From Eggerthellaceae bacterium (GTDB lineage Bacteria > Actinomycetota > Coriobacteriia > Coriobacteriales > Eggerthellaceae), in the NCBI GenBank assembly GCA_017459805.1, contig JAFUCE010000012.1:1-38819 (forward strand): a DNA stretch of 38,819 nucleotides, in the 5' to 3' direction. Below are positions 11,742 to 35,700 of the stretch, in pieces. A program made the position numbers and the translations under genes. The notes below the pieces were generated by a model. That model made no database searches and had not been told where the DNA came from. It was given only the letters and a program-made list of their open reading frames with translations. The stretch's first letter is position 1, and each line of letters opens with the position of its first letter.

Positions 11742-14700
11742 TGCGGCGGCGGGCTGCCAGCATGGATGACAGCCCTACCATCGCTACTACCGCCAGAGGA
11801 GCAAGCGGTGCTTCATCGCTTGTCTTGGGCGTTCCCTTAACAGGCGTACCCGAAGACGATGTTCCCGTCGGCACCGGCGTCACCTTCGAAGGTGTCGGGG
11901 TCGACTGCGGGTTGGCGCAGTCAGATGCGTACTGAGCTACGTAGCCAAGAATGTTGCCGTTTTCGTCCTTGATTTCAGCCCAGCCGATGAAGCTGAGGCC
12001 GTCATGCGAAGGCGTGAATTCGGTCTCGGAGTACGAAGCGTCCTGGCCGTCATAGTAGAACGGCGTGACGGCAGGCTTCTCGTTGTACTTAGCAACCAGG
12101 ACCCAGTCGCCGAACTCGTCTTGGTTCAGAGCCCAGCCCACGAATTCGTAGCCGTCGTGCGACGGATTACCGGGCGCATCGGTCTGGCCGTTGGCCGCAG
12201 CATCGGCAGCTTCCTGGTTTCCATACTTCAGTGCAGACAGAATCATGGAGCCGTCAGCAGCCTTCGGGTCGATATACGTTACCTTGGGCAGCGCGTTCTC
12301 TTCGTCCTTAATCCACTGAGCCTGGTAGGTGACGTTGCCGTTTTCGTCAACCACGCGCGTCCAGCCCGCGAAGGTATAACCATCACGCGTCGGATTCGCG
12401 GGCGGTTCAGGTTCGGCGCTGCCATTATCGATGACTTCAATCAGATACTCCTCGCCCGTTACGGGGTCGACATACTTGATGGTCTTCTTGCCAATCTCGT
12501 TCCACTGGGCTTCGTAGGTCACGTTGCCGTCGTCATCCACCACGCGCTTCCAACCGGCGAAGGTGTAGCCATCGCGCGTCGGATTAGCGGGCTGATCAGG
12601 CTCTTTGCCGCCCTTTTCGATAACCGTCTTCTCAACATACACCTTGCCCGTTGCGGGGTCGACGTACTCGACCGTAATGCAGTTAAGCTTGTTCGTTACC
12701 GTAATGCTGAGTTCGCTTTCATCCGTGCTGTACACGCCGTCGGAATAGCTTGTGGTATAGCCATCCACCTTATCTTCCTCAACCGTATACTCGACTGCCT
12801 TGCCGTTGACAACCGTGGGTAGATTCGACCACGTAACGGTCAGGGCCTCACCGGTGGCATCAGCTTTGATGGTCCTGTCGTTGCTTGCGTCCATGCGCTT
12901 GCGGGCGCCATCAACCATCTGAACCAGATGCAAGGTTACATCGTCACGGAGGTCGAGGGCGTCGTCCTTGTCGTCCCACACCTTGGTGGCTTTCACCGTG
13001 ATAGACTTACCTGCCTCATGTGAGTTGAAGATTTTTATCTCGAACGTATCTTGACCCTCATAACCTTCGGTGTAACCGCTTACTTCGTCTTCGGTAACTG
13101 TGTACTTCGCAGGAGCACCCGCGGTATTCGCCGGCACCGTGTAGGTCTTGGTCCACTTGTCATCATCAGAGCCTCTATCGGCTTCTGTCAAGACGTCTTC
13201 AATCGTGAAGCCGTTGTCGCCCGTGATGGTGATGTTGATATGGTCGGGGCGAATGCCATCTTTATTGCTTTCGTCGTTCCAATTCTTGGTCACCGTAAGC
13301 ACAGCGGTGTCTTGCGTGCGCTTATTGATAGCCTTGAATTCGCCTGCTCCTGTGGACTCGATGATAGGTGCATCGTATCCAAGCTTCTGCAGGTTCAGGG
13401 CGTCGTCGACGGCTTCATAGACCTCCTTGACGAAGTAGATAACAGGCACTTCCTTCGTCGGTTGGACAGTTTCGTCTTCCTCTACCGCAACCTGGGTTTC
13501 TTCGTAGTCGGCCTTGGTCTTGGCACCAGCCGCAGGCAGGTTGTTGTAGTCGACAACGCTCATCGTTTCGTCAGAACCGATCTTCTTGTAGCCTGTCGTC
13601 TCTTCAACGGCTTCGTAATTTGCCCGATCATCTGGGCTTAAGCCATTGTAGTCGTTAACGGAAATGGTGTCCGTGCCGCCAATTACCTTATAGCCCGTTA
13701 CCTCAATGACCGCTTCATAGTCGGCCTGAGTTGCTGCACCAGCATCTGGAAGAGCGTTGTATTCTTCGACCGTGATGATGTCGTCCGCATCATTGATGTT
13801 TTGGTACTTCAGCTCGACACGTTCCTCGGTTGAAGCATCGCCGTCGTCCACCTCTTTAGTTGCCGGCAAGTTGGACCATCTGGCCGTTGCCGAACCGTCG
13901 GCGGCCACATCAATGGTCTGGCTTGCATCGTCGCGTGTAGAGAGCGCTGCTTCTTCGTCGCCAATCTTCTCCCACAGTTCATAGGTAACAGATGCGGGGC
14001 GTTTGCCGTCGACATTATCGTTGTCCTGCCATTCCTTGCTTACGCTGACTTCAGTGGTCGGTTCCGCGAAAGTATTGGTTACCGTGAAGCCATTTTCGGC
14101 GTCTCCGCTGACGCCTGAGGTATATCCGAATACCGCTTCTTCGACAACTTCCCAGCTCAGGTCGGTGTTGCTGTAATGGCGCTTCGGCACATTCCATTCA
14201 ACCGTGGCACCGCTGTTCTTTTCAATCTTCTTGGTGCCCGCATCGTAGACAATCAGGCCATCGGCGTTCTTACCATACAGGTGCAAAATGACATCGGTGC
14301 GCAAGCCTAAGGCGTCATCGTTGTCGCCCGCCCAGGCCTTGGTGGCTGTAATGGTCATGGCGTCAGCCTTGTGCGTGTTCGTAATGACATACGGATCATC
14401 TGGAGTACCGCTGCCCGTAACATCGCTGGTGTAACCGCTTGGAACAGTTGTCTCTTCCACGCTGTATGTGATAGCTGCACCTGCGGCGGTCTTTGTGGGC
14501 AGGTTCGTCCACGTGGCCGTCCAGTTGTTGGCGGCGCTGAGGCTCTTGGTTTGAACATCTGAGCCACTGGCGTCCTTGCCGTCCCAGCCATTGCTGCCCG
14601 AAAGCCTAACCTCAATGGCGTCTGTGCGCATGCCGTCCTGGTTGTCGGCGTCGTCCCACTGCTTCATGACCGTAATGGTGGTGACATTGCTGGTATTGGT

Positions 14701-17700: not shown

Positions 17701-20700
17701 GCTCGCGCCATCCACGACCGTCTTGGACACCGCACCGCCATTGGAAGTGCTCTCGCGGGACAGTGTCAACACCAGAGCAGTGTTGTCATGCTCGGCATCG
17801 GCGCCGCCATCCCAAGTCTTGCTGCCAGCAATCGGAATGGTCGCCTGCAGCTTGTTGGTAACCGTGCCGCCATTGTAGATGGCGTCGTTCACAGTTTCGT
17901 CGAAGTCCGCTGTAGCAGTATTGTCCGTATTAGAGTACGTTGTTACATAGTCACCGCCGATTGCAGATTCACGCACACGGTAAATGTAGGTGTTGCCGTC
18001 TACATCCTTCGCAGGCAGGCCCGTAATAGTGAAGCTTTGCGTGTAGGGCTTGGTTGCAGTGGCTGCCACCCAATGCAGGTGACCAGTAACGCCGGTCCAA
18101 CCACTTTCGCCCGTTGCGTCGGTCGTGCGCTGCAGCGTGAGCTTGTCGGCAAGCTCGGTCACGTTGTCGTGCGTCTTTCCGCCATCCACCCACACCTTGG
18201 TGCCCGTGAACTCGGTACGCGCGTAGGTGTTGATAACCGTGTGCAGGTTGCCCAGTTTCACGTAGGCAGGAGCGCTGTAGTTGGGCAGCTGCTCCTCGGT
18301 AACCTCGTAGGTGATGAGCTCATCGGCCGCGTCGATCTTGGGCAACGCCCCGGTGGCCTTCTGCCAAGTCTCATCGGTCTGCTTGTCGTCGGCCTTCGTG
18401 AGCGTGAAGGTCTTGGTGTAGCTGGTGTCGGAGACCTTCGTGAAGCCCACCGTCTCGAGCGCCGGGGTGGCAACCGTTGTGGTAGCCGTTACCAGAAGAT
18501 CAACGCTGTCAGGACGTGCAGCAAGCACGGTGCCGTCAGCGTCCTTATCCACCCAAACCTTACGCAGGGTCAGGTTGACCGTGCCACCGTAGACGTTGGT
18601 GAAGGTGTTCTTTACGTTGTCGTCGCCCGTCCATGCGTAGGTAGCAGAAATGGTGCCATTCGCTTCACGCTTCAGCGTAACGGTGACAGTCTTTTCTGCG
18701 CCATCGTAGGCAAGGTCGTTAATAGTCTTGCCGCCGTTGACCTCTGTGACCTTATAAGTGAAGGTCTTGGTGTTGCCCGCGGCGGTCTTATCCGTCATGT
18801 CCGCACCGGTGAAGGTGATGGTCGGGAAGCTGATTGCTGCTTCCGAGCCGCTGGTGGGCTTGATGGTTACCCAATCTGGTGTCGGCGTCGGTGCGCTTGC
18901 CGCATTGTCGCCTGTAGCCTGCAGCAAGAAGGTGAACTCGTCTCCAGATTCAAATGCGCGACCAGTAATCTTCTTGGTCAATTTAGGTGTGAAAGTAACG
19001 CTGACCGGCGTATGGACGTTGGTCACGGTAATACCGCTGGTCTGGTCGCCAGAGCCGTCGACTGGCTGAGCAACGCCTTCGCCGCTCAGGTTGTAGCCGC
19101 GAACCGCATCTTCCACGATGCTGTAGGTGATGACCTTGCCGCCCTCACCATTCACGACACCGTACTTCGGGAATCCGCTAAGAAGAATACGTCCCAAAGT
19201 TCCCTGGGTGACATCGTTGTCGTTCGTGCTGACCGAGATCGTGCCGTTTTCGAAGGTGCCACCGGATACGCTGGCGCCTACAGGCAGCTCGGTAACTTGC
19301 GTCTTCTGGCCACCTTCGGGCTGCTGATACAGCTTGTAGGTGATAGTGTCAGGGCGCAGGTTGTCCACGTTGGAACCGTCGTTCCAGACTTTGTCCACCG
19401 TGAAGCTGACCTTGTCGGGTTCGTCAGTGTTGCTGATGTCGAAAGTGAGCGTGTCGCCCACGAACGTGCTCAGCAGAATCTGGCGAATAGCCGCATTGGC
19501 CGAAGCCGTGTAGTTGGCATCCAGCCCGGTCTCGGTGGCCGTGTAGTTGTACACCGCGCCATTAGCGTCGGCATAGGGCAGGTTCTCCCAAACGGCCGTC
19601 CAGGCCCAGACATCCTCGTTTACAAGGGTGTCAACGGACTTGGTCTTGGTTGCCGTAGCCTTCGTGAGTGTCTTTTCGGCATCAACATTCTCGATATCGA
19701 GTTCCACGCCATTCTGGTACAGCGTCACCTTAATGTCATCAGGGCGCTTGCCGTCGTTGTTGTCGTTGTCGAGCCACGCCTTCTTGACGTCGACCTTAAT
19801 CAGCTGCGTATTAGTAATGGTGCCGCCATTGTTGGCATGGTCGCCATCGCTATAGACAGGCGCCGCATAGCCGTTAACCTGCGTTTCCTTAACCGTGTAG
19901 ACACTGGGGTCGTCCACACCAGGCGTCTTGCCTTCGGCATACTGTGGCAGACCCGTCCAGGTGGCCGTGTAGGTGTTGTCGCTATTGTCGGTTACTGTAA
20001 GATTGGTAGCATGCGTGGCGGTAACGTCTGTGCCATCGGCAAACAGCTTCAGGCTGGACTTGTAGTCTTCAGCACTTGGGCGAACGCCGTTCTGGCCATT
20101 GTCCACCCACTTCTTCGTAACCACCAAATCCGGCGTGATACTGATGGTGTTGGTAAGCGTTTCGCCTGAAGCGGCCTTCTTTACCGTAGAAGCGACCGTC
20201 TCGTCGGGCGTTGGATCGGCGCCGGTGGCAGCAGCCGTGTAATTAGCAGGTATCGTTTCCTTCCAGTAATAGGTGTAGGCACGGGACTGCTTCTGTGTGG
20301 TCTCTACCTCCTTGAAGTACCTCGTGCCTGCAACAACCTCTATATCGGTAGCTTCCACATATTCTTCAGCGTCAAAATCATAGACAAGCCATCCCTCTTC
20401 AGACGGATTTTCTGTGCCCTCGGGGGTTATTTCTACAATTTCCGAGTCTATTACGACATCCACCAGTACATTCTTCGGTAGGTTGCCATATGCAAGCGTC
20501 CAGGTGTTCGCAGCGGTTTGGTCGTCTGCGGACATCAGATGCTTGATAGCGTTGCCGTCGGCGTCAGTCGAAACTTTTTCAAAGACGTCTTTGTTGTAAG
20601 CGTTCTTGTAAGTGCGCCAAAGCTCGACAGTCAGGGTGTTTGGACGCATGCCGTTGGCGTCGTTGTTGTCCGCCCACACCTTAGTAATGGTGGCCTCGGT

Positions 20701-23700: not shown

Positions 23701-26700
23701 CGTGGGCTGCACGGTGATGGTGTAGCCAGAAGGCACCGTTTCTTCAACCGAATAGTTAATCTTGGTCGTGCCGTCCTTCTGGTAGATAGGCAGACCCGTG
23801 TAGGTAACCACCGTAGTGTTGGCGGTCGCGCCATCTACAGCCGTGCGCGTAATTACCGTGCCATCAACCGTAACCTTAGTGCTGTCCGCAAACAGCGTTA
23901 GGCTGCTGGCAAACGCGTCATTCGTCGGACGGATCTTGTCCCTGTTGTTGGCGTCGTCCCAGGTCTTAGTAACAGTCAGCGTGCCGCGTACAAGCGTATT
24001 GGTAAGCGTGGAGTTGTTGTTGACCCGAATGGTCTCTTCCCCATCGCCCACAACACTCACTGCACCCGTTGGGTTATCAGTTTCGTCAACTGCGCCTTCG
24101 TATACACCAGATGCCGTGTAGCCTTCTGGTACCACTTCTTGCCAGTAGTAGGAAATGGGGCGCGAAACGTAGGTGGTTACCCCTTCCGCTGTTACCGCAA
24201 CCAGCTTGTACTTCGGCAGGTTGTTGATGGTTTCCTTCCAGGTGTTGCCCGTTGTGTCGGTCGTGTCTTTGTCTTCCACGGAAAGCTTCAACACAGGTAC
24301 GTCGGTTGTTTCGTCTACCTGCTTGGCGCGTTCTGGGGTAATGGGGTTGCCATCTGCTCCGTCGTAAACGCGCATAAGCGTGAATTCCTGAACATCCGGG
24401 CGCGTATTGTATTTGTTGCTTTGGTCCGCCCATACCTTGGTGATAGTGGCAGTGGTGGTCTCGACCGTATTGGTGTAAACCGGCGTGAACTGGGTGCCTG
24501 TGGTGATGTCTTCTGGATGCTCTTCGTCGTAGTCGTAAGCAATTTGCACCTGAAGCGTTCCGGTGCGGTTCTCGCGCACCTTGACATGCACGGTATGTTC
24601 CTTGCTGTCGTAGGTGATGCCATCCTTAGAGAATCCGCCTGCGGCTTTTTCTTCTGCCGTAGCGTCGGCGTAGGCCTTGCCGTTTGCATTCTTAGCATCG
24701 GCCGGAACAACTTCCTTCATTACATAGAAGAAGTCGCCCTGCATGTGGCCGTCGGTTTCGTCGTAGACCAAATCGTTCACGTCGAACTTGATTGCACCGA
24801 AGCGTGCCAGACGTTCCAGGCCACCGTTCGGGTCGACGGTGTCCATGATATTCTTGGCGTGCGTGGTTGACTTGGCGTTCTTGGTGCCCGCGTCTTCAGT
24901 CGTGGACTCACGACCGGTGTCGGGCTCTGGCATGGGTACAGACGCCTTGGCGTCATTGCTGCCATCGATGCCGTTAAAGCTTCCATCCTCTTTATATTTA
25001 CCCTTGCCTGCCGGTTCCAGCGTGAACGCGAAATCGTCGCCATCCTGCCATGCACGGCCGAGGAGCTGCTTAACTGCTGCAATATTGGCTGTGTTGGTGG
25101 CTGTGACGGTGTTGGTGACCACAGGGTTGTCGCCCATGTTCAGGTAGTAACCACCCTTGTCAGAAAGTGTGGTTGTCTCTGCTTTTTCTTCGTACCAGAC
25201 TTCTGTTGACGGATTCTCTGTACCTTCCGCTGTGACGGCTGTATATTCTTCTGTTTCGCTGTCATACGTGTAATACGTCTTGTCAGGATTAACTGCTGTA
25301 TCCTCGGTCAATACGTATGTAAGCTCTGTACGCTCTGTCCTGTAGGTAGTCTGGTATGCGTCGGAGGTATTGTCCTCTTCCAGCTTGTAGATGGCGCGAT
25401 AGTCGACACCATTTTTTGTGACGTACATCGGGAGGTCTTTGTTGAAGTCTTCCTCGATATAATCCTTGCTCGCGGTGTTGCCTGGCTCTTCATCATACTT
25501 TGGTGTTCCGTCAGCATTTACGAAGTCTCCGCGCTTGACGTTGTATACCAGACCTACCGTCTCCCATGGATATGTTGCACTCAGGGTCTCAAGATTATCG
25601 TAGTTAACGCCAGCCATTTCGCTAACGGGAACGAGCATCCTCCTAAGATGCAGTGTTACGTCTTCAACGGCAGGACCGTCCTCCCATTCCTTAGTTACAA
25701 CTACACTGTCTGCTTTGACATTAGTATTTGTAATATGAAGGCCTTTTATAGAATCGGTATAGGAGGAAACATAATCTGTTTGCTGCTTGGTCTCTTCAAT
25801 ATAGTAGTCATAGATGTATCCATCCTTGTCTACTGCATTCAGATATGGATCAACGTAATTATTTCCATCTTTGGCCATGATGATATAGGTATATGGACCA
25901 TTACCATCGCCACCTTCCTGCTTTTCATAGGTATAGGTGGTACGATTTTCTGTTACAGCTTCGTACCAGCCATTATCAGATGGATCGCCTTCAGGATTAT
26001 CTACAGGTGTATAATTATCATCTTCTTTGGAGTAGTAAGTCTTACCAGCTACAACTGCTGAGTCTTCACTGAGCTTATACTCTCCTGTAGCCACAGTCTC
26101 GGTATTAGGCGTTCTCTTTACCCATACCACTACCAGGGGTCGTCCCGCGTTATCCTCTGAAATGGTTTCTTCTTTAGACCCTTCCTTATCAAGCTTTCTC
26201 TTAAGTTCAAGACCAAGCTTGTCCTCATTAGGAGTCTCTGCATTATCAACTACTGCGGTACTGTCTCCATTGAGATTTACAACACCGTTTACATGTTCAG
26301 CAGGTGTACCGCCAACCCAGGTCTTTGTGCCTTCCACCGGGGTTTCCATCAAAGCGTAGTTGGTGTAAACCGGCACAAATTCCCCTACTCCACGATCATC
26401 AAATCTAACCTCGGTATGGATTTCTTCGCCATTATCCTCGGCAAAAATGATGACAATATGTTCCTCTGTGGTGTACTTGATATTGTTCTCTCTGGCGTCC
26501 TTGGCAACCTTGTAGTTTACGTTATTGCCATTGATATCTTTTCCGCAAACTTCATTTGTTTCCTGAACATCTCTGTCCGGAACAACCTCTGTAATCTTAT
26601 AGACAAACTCACCTTCCATCTTACCTGTTGCAGGATTCAATGCCAGGTCTGTTCTATTGATTATAATAGGAGCAAAGTTTGCAGCATGCTCGTTAACGCT

Positions 26701-29700
26701 TACCGACTTGGAATTAATGTCGGCAATGGCCTCATCATTATTGTTTTTGAATTTAGGTAGCGTGTTAGTGACAGTTGTTTCATGCTTATCGTACTTATCT
26801 TTTTCAGTTGTATCAGTAATCGCATTGTATTCAGCCTCTGTAATAACCTGTTTAGTGTCCTTATGTACATAGTTAATAATCTTGCGTTCTGCGCCCTCAT
26901 TAACAGGAGCACTTTCTCCACCGATCTTACTCCTTACCGGAGTTGCCTCAAATGTGAATGACTCGTTGGTCCAATTCTTTCCTATGTACTGTTTAACCAC
27001 ACCAAAGCTTACCTCCTCGGTAATATTCTTCGGGAAGTTGGTTACATACATCTGCTTGACGCGGTCGTCAGGTGCCAAATATTCATCTTGATCTGTTGGA
27101 TCTGATTTTTCCTTAAACTGCGGTCCCGTGTGATATGCATCCGTCTTATACTTATCAGTATTGGTGATGAGTTCACCTGGTTCATAGGGAACCTCATTAT
27201 AGCGAATATCTGCAGTTCCACGCGGTGTAGTAGTTCTATCTCCGCTGCCCTCAATATCATACTTGCTTACTTCTTTTACCTGATAGTAGACCCACTTGTC
27301 ATTCAGGTCGAGATTGTCAGCTCCGGTGCTTCCGCCCTCAATACTGTAGCTCTTAATATTTGCATATGCAGGTAGATTCTCCCATGTAGCAGTGAGGTCA
27401 CTTCCTGTTGCATTCTTCGGAATCTCCTTGGTTCCTACAACGTTGGGGAACCAGTCAGTGCCATCTACATCATAGAAACTAGTTCCGTCGATGGACCACT
27501 GAAGCTTAAGCGTTACATCCTCTGTGGCAGTGCCTGCCCAAGCTTTGGTGACTGATAGGTCACGTTGCAGCTTGTTAACAAAGGTAACTACAGAGGCCTT
27601 CACACTTGTATTTTCTCCTGTTGCTGGATCCGGCACATAACGTGCTTGAGAACCATATCGATCCTCGAATATTTCCACATAGTGTTCCAGTTTGCCATTG
27701 CCGATGTCATAAACTGTTACACGGGCATACTCAGTGTCAGGATCTCTAGCAAGATCCTTAACATAGTTAGTATTAACATCGTCGAATTCATCAGTTTCTT
27801 CGATGGCATACATAAACTGACCGTATACTGTACCAACCGGAAGCAGATTACCATTCTTGTCATATACCCGAGTATCCGGCTTGTTTTCTTCAGGTTCCTT
27901 CTGTGTCTCAGCTGTCGTTATCTTATTTAGGTCAGCTAAAGTGATCTTGATTGCAGGATATGTAAAGTCAATAGGCTCATGAGTTCCAACCATTCCACTT
28001 GGCACCTTAACTCTCTTAACATGTTCACCTTCTTTATTGTGAACAGCGTTCCCCGCATCAAGTTTCTGGTTTCTATCAGCATGATCATACGTATCTTCTT
28101 CCGGGAAGTCTGTGGCATACGCATCTGTAAATGGTGCTCCTGCCATAGGAATCATCCTGAAGTCAAAGTTATCCCCTTCTTGCCACTCACGGCCCCTAAT
28201 ATATTTATTGACCTTTACGGTAAACTCAGTCTCTGCGTCGTAGGTATTGGTGTATACCGGTGTGAACTGGGTACCCTTGGTGATATCCGGCTTATAGTTA
28301 TTTGTTCCGGCACCGGTCTCGTCATAGGCCACCTGTGTGGACAGTTCTCTTGTACGGTCTTCGCGAACTCTTACGTGTACATAGTGCTCGTCGCAGTCGT
28401 AGGTGATACCGTTGTTGAACTTGACGGACTTAAGGGTCTCCCCTGTTGCAAGGGTTGGCATAGCCTTATTATCTATAGGCTTCGTCTCCGTGGTCTCATT
28501 GCTAGCACCCTTATTCTTAACTACGGTGTATTCAACAGGATAAAGCTGATTATCCCCTGTGGTCACGATTGTCGGCAGCTTCTCCTTCATGATATAGAAG
28601 AAGTCTCCCTGGAGGTGCTGTTTGCCGGTCTTGGCGTAGTCTAAATCTTCTGCGGTATAAGTTATGGCACCGAAACGAGCCAAACGTTCAAGATTACCGT
28701 TGGGATCAACAGTTGTTGTGTCTGTCTTTGCGTGGGTGTTGGACTTCTCCTGTGCCACAAAGTCCAGCTTGCTGGGTCCATCTGCAAGGGCATTATAAGC
28801 ATCCGCAGAAATGATGTCGTCCGGATCTTCTTTATTGACATACTTCGTTTCGTCGCCGGTAACCTGTTCATAGTTGCTCTTGGCGATCTCCGGAAGATTA
28901 ATGTACTCCGCTTCTGTCTTTGTAATGCTTGCATCGGTCTTACTTACGTATCCCGTGATGGTAGTTGTTGAATAAATCGCAGCATTTTCCGCCGGCATAG
29001 GCACCTTTGCCTTTCCGGCATCTGACGTATCAATGCTGGTGATATTGTCTTTATCATCATATACCGCCACACCGTAAGGCGTGAGTTCGAACTCAAAGTC
29101 ATCGGATGTAAGCCAGTTGCGTCCCTGGAGCTGCTTGACTGCAGCAATGTTGGCAGTATTCTTAGCCACAACAGTGTTCTTTACAACCAGTGCCCCTGTG
29201 TCATTACCCTTGCTGTCCTTGAAGCTCTTGTCATTGATGTAGTACTTGGGATCGTATTCCCTAGTGTAGGCATCTGACGTGTCATTCTCAATAAGCATAT
29301 AGACTGCACGGTATGTGATGCCGTTCTTCACGACATACTTCGGCAGATCCTTATTGAATCCTTCTTCATTTTCAATCAGCTTGGTGCTGGTTTTGCTTCC
29401 TGCTGAATCGTATTTGGGATCTCCGTTAGACTTCAGGAATTCTCCGCGCTTCACATCATAGACGTAGCCGACTCTCTGCCAGAAGTCGCCGGACAGCTCA
29501 TAGTTTTCTTTCTGATCAGCGGGAAGCGCATTGTATTCAGCCGGTGTCTTCACATCGTCATAATTCGTCTTATTTCTGTAATTCCCTGGTATCCACAGAG
29601 CTTCCTTTGCCTCAACAACACTCACACCGTTGTCGCCGTCCAGCTGCGCCTCATCTGTCAGCGGGAACAAGTGCTGCTCCAGGTGCAGGGTTACATCTTC

Positions 29701-32700
29701 CACCGCCGGACCGTCAATCCACTGCTTCTTGACCGGGATGTCTACGGTCTCGTAGTTGTCAAAGTGAACAACGTTAACTTCTCTGTAGCCCGCATCGTTC
29801 AGTCCCGCCGTATTGCCGGCCGCCTTCATTGCTTCTGCGGATTCTCTCTCTTCAGCTGTGAGCAGTCTCTTCAGCCGGTTGGTGTACTTGGCCTTGTCTG
29901 CGTCGCTCATGGCCTTGTACTCTGCAGCCGTCTTGGTAACAGAAGGATCGGCCTTGCTTACGTACTGATACTCTGTATTTAGGGTGTAATCCAGTTTGCT
30001 CGCACCGGTCGGCAGCGCGTTATAGGCTGTATCGGAAATAATATCTGTCGCATCATAGTTGTTGATGTATTGCGTTGTATCTTCCGGATTAACCGTATAG
30101 TTATCCTTTGTTGCTGCCGGCAATACGTCATACGCCGCCGGCGTTATGACATCAGTTGCATTGTTCTTATTGATGTAGCTTTCGACCGTCAGGATCTTGT
30201 CCACGATCCAGACTTTGTGCCTTGTAATCTCGTAGGCATCCTTGCAGGAAGCGTCGGTATAGTAATGTATGTCGAAGCTTAAGGTGCCGTCCCAGTTGTC
30301 GCTGACCTTGACTTTGGCATAAATCTTGCTGCTGTCGTAGGTCAGGCCATCCACGGTATAGTCACTCAAACCAAGAGAATCTCTTGCGTCTGAAGTTGCG
30401 CTTGGGTTTTCGGTCAGCTCGTAGATGAAGTTGGCCTCACCATTGCTTCCCAACATGTCGCCGGTATAGGGATTGCCGTTTATGCCAAAGGCCCACATAC
30501 TGCTTGCAAGCTGCTGCAGGTCCTTCTGCGGATTGTTCGTAGTAGTGCTGGTAACCAGCGGCATGGTAGTATAATAATCGTCCGTTGTAGCGCCCTGGGT
30601 ATTCAAGTTGGCGCCTGCAATGCTCGTAATGGTGAACTGGAATGCATCGCCTTCATTGTTAGCATAGTCATCCCACTCACGGCTCTGGATATTCTTCTCT
30701 ATCCACGCTTTCGCCTCGCCGGCAGAAGCATAGGTATTCTTGAATATTGGCGTCTCGGTCGTCCACTCGACGGTGGTCGTGCCTGCATCCGTGCTAATCT
30801 TTTCCCAACTGTGCTCTGTGGTCACAACATTGTTTGCGTCCGCGCTGGCAACAACCTTCAGAACTTCGGTCTTTGGCGTCCAGACGTTATTGACCGGCGT
30901 GCCGTCGTACGTAATTCCCTTATCGTCCTTTTCTTCGACGATGGTGCCCTTGTTATCCTTGGCCTCGTAGACCTTGTAATAGAAGGTCGATGTCTTGGTG
31001 TCGGTGTCGATGTCCGTTGCATCGTAAAGGATCGGCGAGAAGGAAACCTCACGCGCCGTGGTTCCCACGGCTGTATTCTGGCTCAAAGCGCGCCCATACT
31101 GCTGACCGTTGCCGGGCAGCGGAACCTTCGCCTTGGCGGCCTGGTCTTCCGTAGAATCCGTAAACTCTATGATTGCACCCGTATCCGGATCGACGCCCTG
31201 GATCGGCTCGATCCAGAAATAGAAGATGTCCTTATCTGCTTCTACGCCTGTCTTCTTGTACTTGGCATCCCAGTCTCTGCCGCTCAGGTCTTTGAGGACA
31301 TCCACGTTGGTGGAGCCTTCTTCCATCAGCTTGTTGATATTGGTGACCGTCAGGCCGTTTTCACTGTAGTGACCTTCAAAACGCTCGTCCGTCCAGCTTC
31401 CTGCTGTCGTGGTCTCAAAGACGCGGTAAACATACGGATTTCCGGACGGATCCATCTCCGGCAGGTTCTGGAAGACATGCTCTTCGTCGTCTCCCGGCAG
31501 AACGAGAGACGTATTGAATGCACTGGAAACGAAGAGGTGTTCGCCTCTGTCTGTTCCGTCTGTGACTCTCTCCCAAGCCGGATCCGGTTTGATGCTGTAG
31601 TTTTCCTTCGCCGTATCGCTTAAGGCATCGTATGCCGCCTTTGTAATTACATCCGAAGCATTCGTCTTGTTTACATACTGAGGATCACCATTCGAATCAA
31701 GGTCATACGGCGTCCAGGTATTGATCTTAATCGTAGCTACCGCATCGGCAATAGAGTACGGTTCTTCTGCCGTGCCCTTGCCAAGGATTTCGTGCCATTC
31801 CGGTGTGTCCGTGGTGCTCGTGTCCACATAGTTCTTGCCGTTGGCATGGTTATACACGTCATAGGTGTCCGTACCGATTGTTATCGTGGTACCGGACTTG
31901 ATTGGAGCCGCCGTACTGGTTTCTTCATCCAATGCGGGAACGACCGGTTCATAGTCAGCCTTTTGTGCGTCAGTCAGATTATTGTAAGCAGCTCTGCTGA
32001 TTACATCTGTGGCATCATTCTTATTGACATATTGCGTAACCGCTGTTCTATACAGATAGAAGCGAATGTTAGCGTTCGCGCCACCCAGCCAATACTTTTT
32101 GGTATCTACATTATTCTTACTGGTGTTGTCTACTCTTAAGGTAGCCGTCGTTGTCTCCGTGGTAATCGTTGACAAGACAGGATCCTTTGGCTGCGGGTCT
32201 GCTGCCGTGGTAAGGTCCACACTGCCGTTAGCGGCAATCTCGTAGTAAACGTACGGGTCTCCCTCGGTACCTGCACCGGTCCTTACATAGCGTTTGCCGT
32301 TCTTTACATAGACCTTATAGGTAACATTGTTGACTTCTATTTCTTCGTCTCTTACGTCGAACGTACGTTTAATGTCATTTGCAATCAGATTATCCGTGTC
32401 AGAAAGATTCACGGTCGTATCGTCTTTATCTGTGTAATTAACATAGTACTTGTTTACATACCAGGTCGCACCATCGCCGGTGAGTGTTTCTTCAAGACGA
32501 TATTTAATTGGCGCGCCATTTGAATACGCAGGAAGGTTCTTGAAAATTGCCTCCCAAGTATTGCCATCTGCATTGTCAACTTCATACACGCCGCTATTTA
32601 TAATTGCAGTAGCCGATGCTACAGCAGCATCATAAGCACCCTTTTCTGTTGTCTCAGGAGTGCCGTCTTCGTCCAAATCATATACAGGTGTCGTGTCATC

Positions 32701-35700
32701 AAGCTCTCCGTCTTCATCAAGGTCGAAGTCGCTTTCGTTCGGAATCTTCGTGCCATCTCCATCAAGGGTAAGTTCATAAAGCCTTGTCTCCAGATTATCT
32801 ACGTCTCTCCAAAGCGTAATCTTAAGCTCGCCTGGGCGATGCCTAAGTACATTGTCATTATCTACCCAATGCTTTACAGCGCTAATACTTAAAGTCTGCG
32901 GCGTATGGGTATTAGTAACTTCTACAATCTGGTTCGTCGTGCGGACGTTACTGTCGACCAGTTTGAAGCTTTCTTCACCTGTGGCAACTGTTTTGTTGGA
33001 AGTAATGGTGTAGGTACCGTTTGTTATAACGGTTCCTGTTTCCTTTATTCTGTAATAGACGACTTTGCCGTCGCGGTATGCCGGCAGGTCTGTCCATGTA
33101 TATGCATTGTTATTGTCCTTATGTATGGCACCACCGGCATAGCTTGTCTTCTTGCTTTCCACATCCTCCATGCCGGGGTCTATAGTTCCGGGGTCTGTCT
33201 CGCTCTCGCGGTTGGGGTTATAGATCTGCGCTGTGGCCCAGTCGCTTTCCTCTGCTTCGGTCGGGTCTTCCGTTGTGTACTGAAGCGTCATGGTGGGAAG
33301 ATCTGCGTCGGCACTCGGACGTCTGCCGTCCTGGTCGTTTGCGTCGTCCCAAACCTTTCTTACCAAAACATTAGCAGTTAGTGGCGTATCCTCCACGGTA
33401 AGCGTACCTGTCCGCTTGTCGGTCTGCTTCCAGTTGTCTTTGGTATTGGTCCTTGATCCGAAGATTAGGTCATATAGTCTCTGCCACCAGTGGGTGTCAT
33501 GGTCGTCGTTGGGGTCTAAGTATTTAACTTCTTTCAGCTCTTTGCTTACATCGAACTGGTACTGGTCGGTATCCGCCGTGTAGCCGGCAGGCGCCTTGGT
33601 TTCGATAATCGTGTAAATACCGGTCCTGTTGAACATGACCGTTGCTTCGCCGTTTGCGTCGGTCACGACCACGATCTCGTCCACTTCTCCTTCGACCTCG
33701 ACCCTGGTCAGGTCACCAGGAGTAGGCTGCGGGTCTGCCTTGGTAGATGCCACATTACCATCAACATCTACTTCAAAGTATTCGCTGCCTTTCAGAACAT
33801 AGTTATGCCCCTTCTTGTCGGTCCACACCTCATACTCGGCACCGTCGGATGTAACCTTCTTATAATTGGTATTCTTTTCTTTGCCAAGGCTTGCAGCATC
33901 TGGCTGCGGGTTTGCTGCTGTTGTGGCAATCGTATTGCCTGTTACCGCATAGTATTTTCCGTCGTCTTTCTTTACATAGCGATTCCCAGTGCTTACATAG
34001 GAAACGGAAGGGTTCGTGGGCTGCGTTGTCACAGGCGTGGTAAAGTCGACCGTGCCGTTGTCGTAAATGTAGTAATCGTAGGTTTCCGGATCTGTTCCTT
34101 TGGGTGTCCTTACGTATTTTGTTTTGCCTACTTTATATACGGTATACGTATTGCCCGTATCTGTAGACTTTTCTTCTTCCAGTTCTTCTAACACCGTCAG
34201 CCCGTCGATCTGCCTATACGTACTGGTGTCTGGCTTTTCATCGATGGCAGGATCTGTATAGACCGTGAATTCCGCGTTGGCAAGGGGCTGTCCTGTGTAT
34301 TCGTCGATTTTCTTGATTTTTACGGGAAGAGGCTCGTATTTGTCTTCCACGATGGGCGTATTGGTAAAGTTAGCCTTATACCCCTTCAGGTCCTGGTTTT
34401 CTTTCACCTGGTCCAGGTCAGACATGGTGTATCCCTTGACCGTTACATCACCGGTCGTGCTGTCCGTTTCCGTAACCTGTGTGATCGTCCCACCTGTAAC
34501 GGTAAAGGAATCTGCCTGCGTAAAGCCTTCCGTTACCGTGTACTTGATAAGCTGACCGTTATGATAGGCCTGGAGTCCTTCGAATACAGCACCGAAGTGG
34601 GAGCCATCCACCTTGTATGCAGTATTCAGGGCTTCTTCCATGTTGGATGTCTGCGGCTGCGGATTTGCGGCTGTGCTGGCATAGCTTCCCGAGGTCTGCG
34701 TGTTCGCGTCGTCGATTGAGTTTACTTTGTAGTACAAATAGGGGTCGGTCGTACTTCCGGAGCCTTGTCTTACATATTTCGTCCCCTGGTCGTCAGCAGT
34801 GTCAATATAAACCGTCTCGCCGGCTGCTGTCTGAACCCTAGCATTAAGCTCGTCTTTGCTGAGGGTGATGGTAAGGTCGGTGGTATTCGGATCGTTTTCG
34901 TCCAGATCAACGACTTGCGCAGACGTGCCTGTACCGATTGTGCCGTGCAGCGTAAACGTGATGTCCCTTCTGTTGTATTCGTTGCCATTCGTTACTGTAG
35001 TATCGAGAGGCTTATTGTTCACGCTGTCCCAAAGATAGGAGTCGTTCCATTCCTTGGTCACCTCAATATCGATGTCGGAAACATCATGTTCATTGCGAAC
35101 AGCCACTGATTTGTACGGATCCGCTTTGTCTGCGGTGTTGAACCCGTTGAGGGTGGCGTTGGTCGTGTTCATGAATTCAGCACGTTCAGCCGCATCTGTA
35201 GGAAGGGTTACTGCAACGTTACTCTTCTCGTTATAGATGACGCGATAATAATCCGAGCCAATCTGCACATATTCCTTACCCCTGTATTTAGAGTTGGAGG
35301 AGTTGTTTCGTAGAACCTGATATTTGGTTCCTCCCACATCAATTTTCTTGAGGTCGCTTGTCTGGGCAGCAGTTAAAGTACCAAGGGCAGGTTGCGGATT
35401 AGCTTCCTGATTATCCGCCTCCCAGTTGGTGACAGGATAGTACTTGTTATCCGACTTGAGCACGTATTCATCGCCGCTTGCATCTCTGTAAATCTGAAGT
35501 CCATCGATGGTTTTGGTCTCGTCGGAAATCAGGTTGAACTGCTGCACGTCATAAAACGTGGGTTTTCTATACCCTTCTAGTACTTCCTCATTTTTCGGAT
35601 TGCTGGTGGCATAACTTGGATCTGCCAGCTGCGTGGGAGTTCCTTCCACAATACGGTACAGAATCTCTCCCGCGGTTCTTCCGTTGGAGTCGTACTGGTA

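Follow-up and report, generated by a model that had tools for sequence, protein, structure and literature searches.

The question raised by this locus is whether short protein segments that distinguish two related parts of one giant gene are discrete units that enter and leave proteins and, if they are, what they are and how they spread. The gene lies on contig JAFUCE010000012.1 of an Eggerthellaceae bacterium (GenBank assembly GCA_017459805.1, positions 1 to 38,819; this whole stretch of 38,819 nucleotides is called the window), and the segments, termed A and C cassettes, interrupt paralogous stalk blocks of its product. A preliminary description made from the DNA letters had regarded them as insertable units accepted in the loops of an isopeptide fold; the observation was partly confirmed and its interpretation partly supported. 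The reading that we favor, with a probability of about two-thirds, is that C is an undescribed promiscuous mini-domain of virions and cell surfaces, which recombination spreads and selection on the peptide maintains, and that A is a separate repeat within this gene. The features on which the argument rests are given below; G003 denotes a genome of the same genus (10 contigs) that carries the orthologous open reading frame (ORF).

11677–38073, minus strand: giant surface-protein ORF of 8798 amino acids (aa), a single uninterrupted frame with an uncertain start codon.
28240–29745, minus strand: block 1, paralogous stalk block, defined by pairwise alignment.
24465–25720, minus strand: block 2, paralogous stalk block, defined by pairwise alignment.
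29494–29580, minus strand: A cassette of block 1, none in block 2, present at the orthologous G003 site; edges not sharp.
28861–28950, minus strand: A cassette, first of a tandem pair in a block 1 loop, from profile searches and comparison with G003.
28753–28842, minus strand: A cassette, second of the same pair, from profile searches and comparison with G003.
25186–25317, minus strand: C cassette of block 2, absent from block 1 and from the orthologous G003 site.
25957–26079, minus strand: second C cassette, upstream of block 2, with a diverged copy retained at the orthologous G003 site.
20389–20430, minus strand: partial C-like segment (ITPEGTENPSEEGW), found by profile searches.

The ORF is a Cna_B/FctA isopeptide stalk protein. 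Pfam searches detected many Cna_B domains, several FctA (Spy0128-like) isopeptide domains, one SpaA domain, and one List-Bact repeat, and both Cna_B (446 and 78 bits in two segments) and FctA (103 and 45 bits) exceeded the gathering score. The domain-by-domain homology noticed earlier between the two blocks was borne out by pairwise alignment, in which 363 residue pairs showed 54.5% aa and 57% nucleotide identity, indicating that the blocks are ancient paralogs with much synonymous change. The flanks continue on both sides of the cassettes as described (THAK...TVDPNG is found in both blocks), and the C cassette, formerly placed at 25171–25325, is an extra segment of block 2 that block 1 lacks; it is also cleanly missing from the corresponding site of G003 (TSDAYRTTYRT...GNGYYLN). 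Of the A cassettes said to occur in block 1 only, the pair at 28753–28950 proved to be a true extra segment, but the sharp edges claimed for 29494–29580 did not hold. At this site, the alignment gap is split and wider than the cassette, and ‘NYDDVKT’ of block 1 partly resembles ‘NYDNLET’ of block 2, so that block 2 may equally well have undergone a partial deletion. For the pair and for C, sharp edges are well supported because the G003 ortholog has complementary states at both sites, which also provide the presence/absence in a related strain that had been proposed as a check. The lengths in multiples of three, which had been taken as evidence, are uninformative since the ORF is intact, and the interval first claimed for C is 155 nucleotides long, itself not a multiple of three.

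Cassette coordinates were refined with profile hidden Markov models. A is approximately 30 aa and C approximately 42–45 aa long, the consensus of the latter being YxLTxDTxVVxGKTYYTxSGxxYTxVxSPxxxxLxxYYE. Profile searches of the genome recovered 12 A cassettes, two full C cassettes, and one partial C, all within this ORF, and translated whole-genome searches for A and C found no copy outside it. A profile built from G003 copies only recovered all 12 A cassettes of the window (independent E-values 1.6e-12 to 0.009, with 10 of the 12 above 10 bits), and a profile built from phage copies only recovered the two C cassettes (41.8 and 21.1 bits), whereas neither profile scored above 6.4 bits in 20 shuffles of the ORF. 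The detection of the window copies by a phage-only profile also shows that C is not a peculiarity of Cna-B domains, an alternative that the preliminary description had left standing.

The hosts of C lie mostly outside stalk proteins. In IMG/VR, C matched 25 loci in a first scan and 30 in a second, partly overlapping one, in frame inside phage proteins. A further 24 loci on genome contigs belonged to Clostridia, Coriobacteriia, Acholeplasmatales, and a Parabacteroides bin; the genome-scan records with C included Lachnospiraceae, Atopobiaceae, Olsenella, and Enorma, and in all cases with an identified family C lay in a capsid gene. Within the class of the source organism, most likely Coriobacteriia, 32 of 398 genomes carried C, and capsid sequences from these genomes recurred in the Atopobiaceae, Olsenella, and Enorma records. 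BLAST comparison of the host proteins with the cassette masked yielded approximately 18–20 clusters, some of which were merged by PHROG assignments; they consist mainly of capsid, tail, and decoration proteins of gut phages and of giant surface proteins. The phage hosts of C include major head proteins (phrog_422, 544, 247, 10, and 1357), a major tail protein (phrog_117), a minor tail protein (phrog_6211), and a head decoration protein (phrog_49). One phage contig (L024/L025) has C twice, in a major head protein (phrog_10) and in an unrelated major tail protein (phrog_117); the two ORFs are 519–1568 and 2833–3603 of L024. An early weak phage match, L002, turned out to be a real capsid insert, and another, L003, was discarded because it lay on unconvincing overlapping frames. 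In relatives, C also occurs in giant bacterial proteins with ORFs of 4960, 8075, and 21,095 aa, two of the three having it in permuted order. Every host that was identified is either a virion protein or a giant surface-type protein, and most are capsid and other virion proteins of phages, so the restriction to the isopeptide fold assumed earlier is not supported, and C looks like a portable surface tag. The 21,095-aa frame (L081, G278:C3, at about 69934–70047), from a genome of the same family and read over 1038 aa, contains leucine-rich repeats of the DUF285/BspA type and tandem C.

The gain or loss of C could be followed directly in capsid genes of Coriobacteriia-type prophages. A search of the class with one capsid sequence returned proteins with and without the cassette: those with it were mostly 338–347 aa long, those without it 294–296 aa, and the junction lay between GYxKA and xxxINFMVVEKSA. 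In the capsids of L163 and L181, the flanks were 88% and 100% identical at the aa level, and in L165 and L186, which come from genomes of different families, the DNA was 89% identical to the left and 93% identical to the right of the 132-bp insert. On a capsid tree built without the cassette, presence and absence changed six times, five of these changes being forced by well-supported branches, compared with 10.6 for shuffled labels. These data are direct evidence that the C-family cassette has been gained or lost, repeatedly, as an in-frame unit in capsid genes. Together with the per-loop copy numbers that differ between the orthologs of the giant gene, these capsid genes, present with and without C and with flanking DNA approximately 90% identical, uphold the view that the cassettes are discrete in-frame units accepted by loops.

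The position of C within one capsid family is not constant. In family 422 it occupies an internal loop (as in L068) but lies toward the C terminus in L114, and in family 544 it is near the N terminus but at the C terminus in L030, L031, and L138. In several copies the two halves were seen in reversed order, YTxV...WYE preceding YxLTxDT...GKTYY (L030, L031, L114, L076, L080, and aa 3263–3306 of G003), as if these segments had been excised from a tandem array in another phase.

The alternative that survives best, although we consider it rather improbable, is that the cassettes are ancestral loop segments from which lineages have only deleted, so that nothing moves. The window ORF was aligned with its G003 ortholog (8506 aa, same architecture), where the end-to-end alignment covers the first approximately 4500 aa and identity is 60% over 4194 aligned residues. 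Several A sites are orthologous in the two genomes (for example, P2704/G2633a, P2133/G2133, and P3735/G3735a), one C site is common to both, and the edges at 29494–29580 would also fit a partial loss from block 2, all of which deletion would explain. However, the loop bearing the A pair contains two A cassettes in block 1 of the window, none in block 2, and one in each G003 block, and the insertion points within this loop differ among the four blocks. At further sites, the window and G003 have 1/2, 1/1, 3/2, 1/1, and 1/2 copies, so that neither genome has the larger count throughout, and G003 bears a C-type segment, its order permuted (EYKEVTPEAADDPSAKGWYE...TYKLSEDDTVDGNKTYYE), at a place that holds no such segment in the window. 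These differences indicate that presence and copy number vary per unit in orthologous loops. Moreover, deletion would not place C in unrelated families at different positions, nor, within one capsid family, both in a loop (L068) and at the C terminus (L114).

Much less probable is that the cassettes spread as a DNA-level mobile element, a short self-inserting, translatable unit like the palindromic elements of Rickettsia. Such an element would account for the clean in-frame presence/absence, and in-frame coding inserts in loops have a precedent (PMC2996958). Against it, the identity at codon positions 1, 2, and 3 was 0.62, 0.63, and 0.33 among A copies and 0.64, 0.65, and 0.32 among C copies across host families (mean aa identity 0.52); third positions are thus near-randomized and the first two conserved, showing that selection acts on the peptide. 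None of 14 cassettes gave a palindrome or inverted-repeat signal, and their folding did not exceed that of codon-shuffled versions (z −2.0 to +1.7). The direct repeats that had been suggested as a mark of insertion were not found at the cassette edges, where the longest had a mean length of 4.7 as opposed to 4.9 for random pairs, and in the source genome the translated searches place copies only in this ORF. Pairs of C from different host families reached a nucleotide identity of at most approximately 0.76, and near-identical copies in different genes were not found. Ordinary recombination, combined with selection on the peptide, remains as the inferred route by which C spreads.

Independent convergence toward tyrosine-rich, low-complexity loops that form no homologous family is less probable still: the segments are short and biased in composition (Y, T, D, K), but their conservation is position-specific (KTYY, YTxV, YYE), the phage-only profile scores of 42 and 21 bits far exceed the shuffled best, and aa identity across families averages 0.52. 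An assembly or alignment artefact can practically be dismissed, because, despite the fragmented source genome (a 2.1-Mb draft, 176 contigs) and the highly repetitive gene, the ORF is uninterrupted, G003 shows the same architecture in only 10 contigs, and the copies have diverged to approximately 53% nucleotide identity, so that assembly cannot collapse or duplicate them.

A few observations weigh against the promiscuous mini-domain. Since cross-family pairs of C do not exceed a nucleotide identity of approximately 0.76, no transfer between families was caught in the act. The capsid tree is unrooted, thus gain is not separable from loss, and some of its long branches are joined. Structure prediction points both ways. 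In a capsid model built from a four-sequence alignment (mean predicted local distance difference test score, pLDDT, 35), only the cassette was confident (pLDDT 63–85, elsewhere below 50), and its 42 residues formed a strand, a hairpin, a short helix, and a strand, which weakly suggests that C may fold independently. This model failed outside the cassette, and the confidence may partly arise because the cassette is the best-conserved part of the alignment; a model of a window block (mean pLDDT 47) did not predict the cassette with confidence. When the capsid model was used as query, Foldseek and VIA returned nothing usable, and a viral library yielded chiefly a relative of the capsid together with a 53-column match of 32% identity to a ‘DUF6273’ phage protein. 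In sequence searches, Pfam gave no relevant match for C or A, immunoglobulin-like (Ig-like) families included, PDB sequences gave nothing significant for C, and, with the terms used, no paper on the C motif was found in the open-access literature. A likeness of GKxYY...P to the WW domain was considered and dropped, as no Pfam match backs it.

Considering the results for C, the following course of events is proposed. C, 42–45 aa long, probably folds alone as a β-hairpin with a short helix and a strand. It would enter, in frame or at a terminus, outward-facing proteins of high copy number, such as major capsid, major and minor tail, and decoration proteins of phages, and giant adhesin-like proteins of gut bacteria, and on virions it is presumably exposed at the surface. 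Gene segments with C would move by ordinary recombination among phages and hosts, and copies landing in a tolerant loop would be retained by selection on the peptide. By analogy with the Ig-like domains of phages (PMC8718954), the most likely role of C is weak binding to some surface in the gut. More tentatively, C could be a portable adhesion tag of approximately 42 aa common to gut phage virions and the giant adhesins of their hosts, a display module exchanged within one gut community. Capsid genes would acquire and lose it in frame over short times, and phage and host would use it to adhere to one and the same surface; we regard this as possible rather than probable.

The A cassette has a far narrower range. 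Of the 398 genomes searched in the class, two had it, each belonging to this genus, and no relative was found in viral contigs. It was also not detected in 12 C-bearing genomes, in the class to which a Lachnospiraceae metagenome-assembled genome (MAG) belongs (291 genomes), or in the order to which a Parabacteroides MAG belongs (119 genomes), searches that lacked a positive control and are weak for this reason. The only resemblance outside the gene was to the stretch YVNRNNPDDVITKEAYAELSDQDKQQYKGV of ArdC-like antirestriction proteins in gut phage records (L087–L090), which scored 34 bits against a best shuffle of 15.4. ArdC was considered as a second host of A inserts and rejected: the A-like stretch, next to PF08401, is aligned in all ArdC homologs examined and, being common to them, is not an insert there. 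Apart from this resemblance, A is, in the genomes searched, a separate genus-restricted loop repeat of approximately 30 aa. Nearest-neighbor comparison of its copies showed both orthologous pairs across species and relatives within one gene, a mixed pattern that fits tandem duplication, loss, and occasional copying within the gene; the proposal for A is that tandem duplication and deletion make the repeat expand and contract within this single gene. The remaining cassettes of the window and one segment of another type are the following:

31942–32031, minus strand: A cassette, one copy in the window and two in G003.
31591–31677, minus strand: A cassette, one copy in each.
29878–30177, minus strand: array of three A cassettes (30091–30177, 29977–30069, and 29878–29964), three copies in the window and two in G003.
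26782–26871, minus strand: A cassette, one copy in the window and two in G003.
13498–13806, minus strand: array of three A cassettes near the C terminus; by eye, a different Y-rich insert stands at the corresponding place of G003.
33985–34185, minus strand: extra B-type segment (YVRxxxG...YYxxxxxGxVxxxT...QP), absent in G003; boundaries approximate.

The B type (YVRxG...YYxxxxxGxVxxTxADPQP) was seen in about five copies at approximately 32190–35500 of the window (ORF aa 860–895, 1100–1140, 1320–1450, and 1920–1960). In the C-terminal halves of the window ORF and its G003 ortholog (L052 and L053), the number and order of Cna_B domains appear to differ more than in the N-terminal halves. As judged by eye only, the C terminus of the ORF (GTPKTSDEAPLAPLAVVAMVGLSSMLAARRR) resembles an LPxTG-type signal, and a hydrophobic stretch is present at the N terminus. 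The adjoining genes encode unrelated metabolic, transport, and signaling domains.

The significance of C lies in its recurrence, without any Pfam or PDB-sequence match, both in giant surface proteins of bacteria and in many unrelated capsid and tail proteins of gut phages. In several capsid families its position reveals a loop that tolerates insertions, and the natural capsid pairs (294 vs. 338–339 aa, with approximately 90% identical DNA) make its effect on virions directly testable. An odd feature of the giant stalk proteins is also explained, namely, that they bear foreign-looking, tyrosine-rich loop inserts in variable number.

The absence of any described mechanism, as stated in the preliminary description, does not stand up to comparison with known systems, since both in-frame coding inserts and accessory phage Ig-like domains have been described. 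In Rickettsia and Wolbachia, in-frame ‘selfish’ coding inserts occupy unstructured segments of proteins (PMC2996958). They share with C the short in-frame insertion at assorted positions of unrelated proteins, whereas A is confined to one gene; however, these elements are palindromic DNA, and C and A are conserved at the protein level only, with no palindrome. The PARCEL repeats of Mollicutes and others are likewise short, coding, and tandem, are horizontally distributed, and are tied to mobile elements (PMC2996958), but they are palindromic and amphipathic with a conserved leading Trp, whereas A and C have neither palindrome nor leading Trp. Closer in setting are the Ig-like domains of phage tail proteins, which are accessory, occur in some relatives only, are dispensable in several cases, and have been proposed to bind carbohydrates weakly (PMC8718954). 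As domains of the virion exterior with a patchy distribution among relatives, Big_1, Big_2, and FN3 resemble C, but C is about half as long, is not recognizably related in sequence to any Pfam family, and lies mostly inside a capsid-protein loop, in contrast to the C-terminal position of the reviewed tail domains (PMC8718954). The precedents thus cover both halves of the phenomenon, in-frame coding inserts on the one hand and display domains on the other, and C fully meets neither definition.

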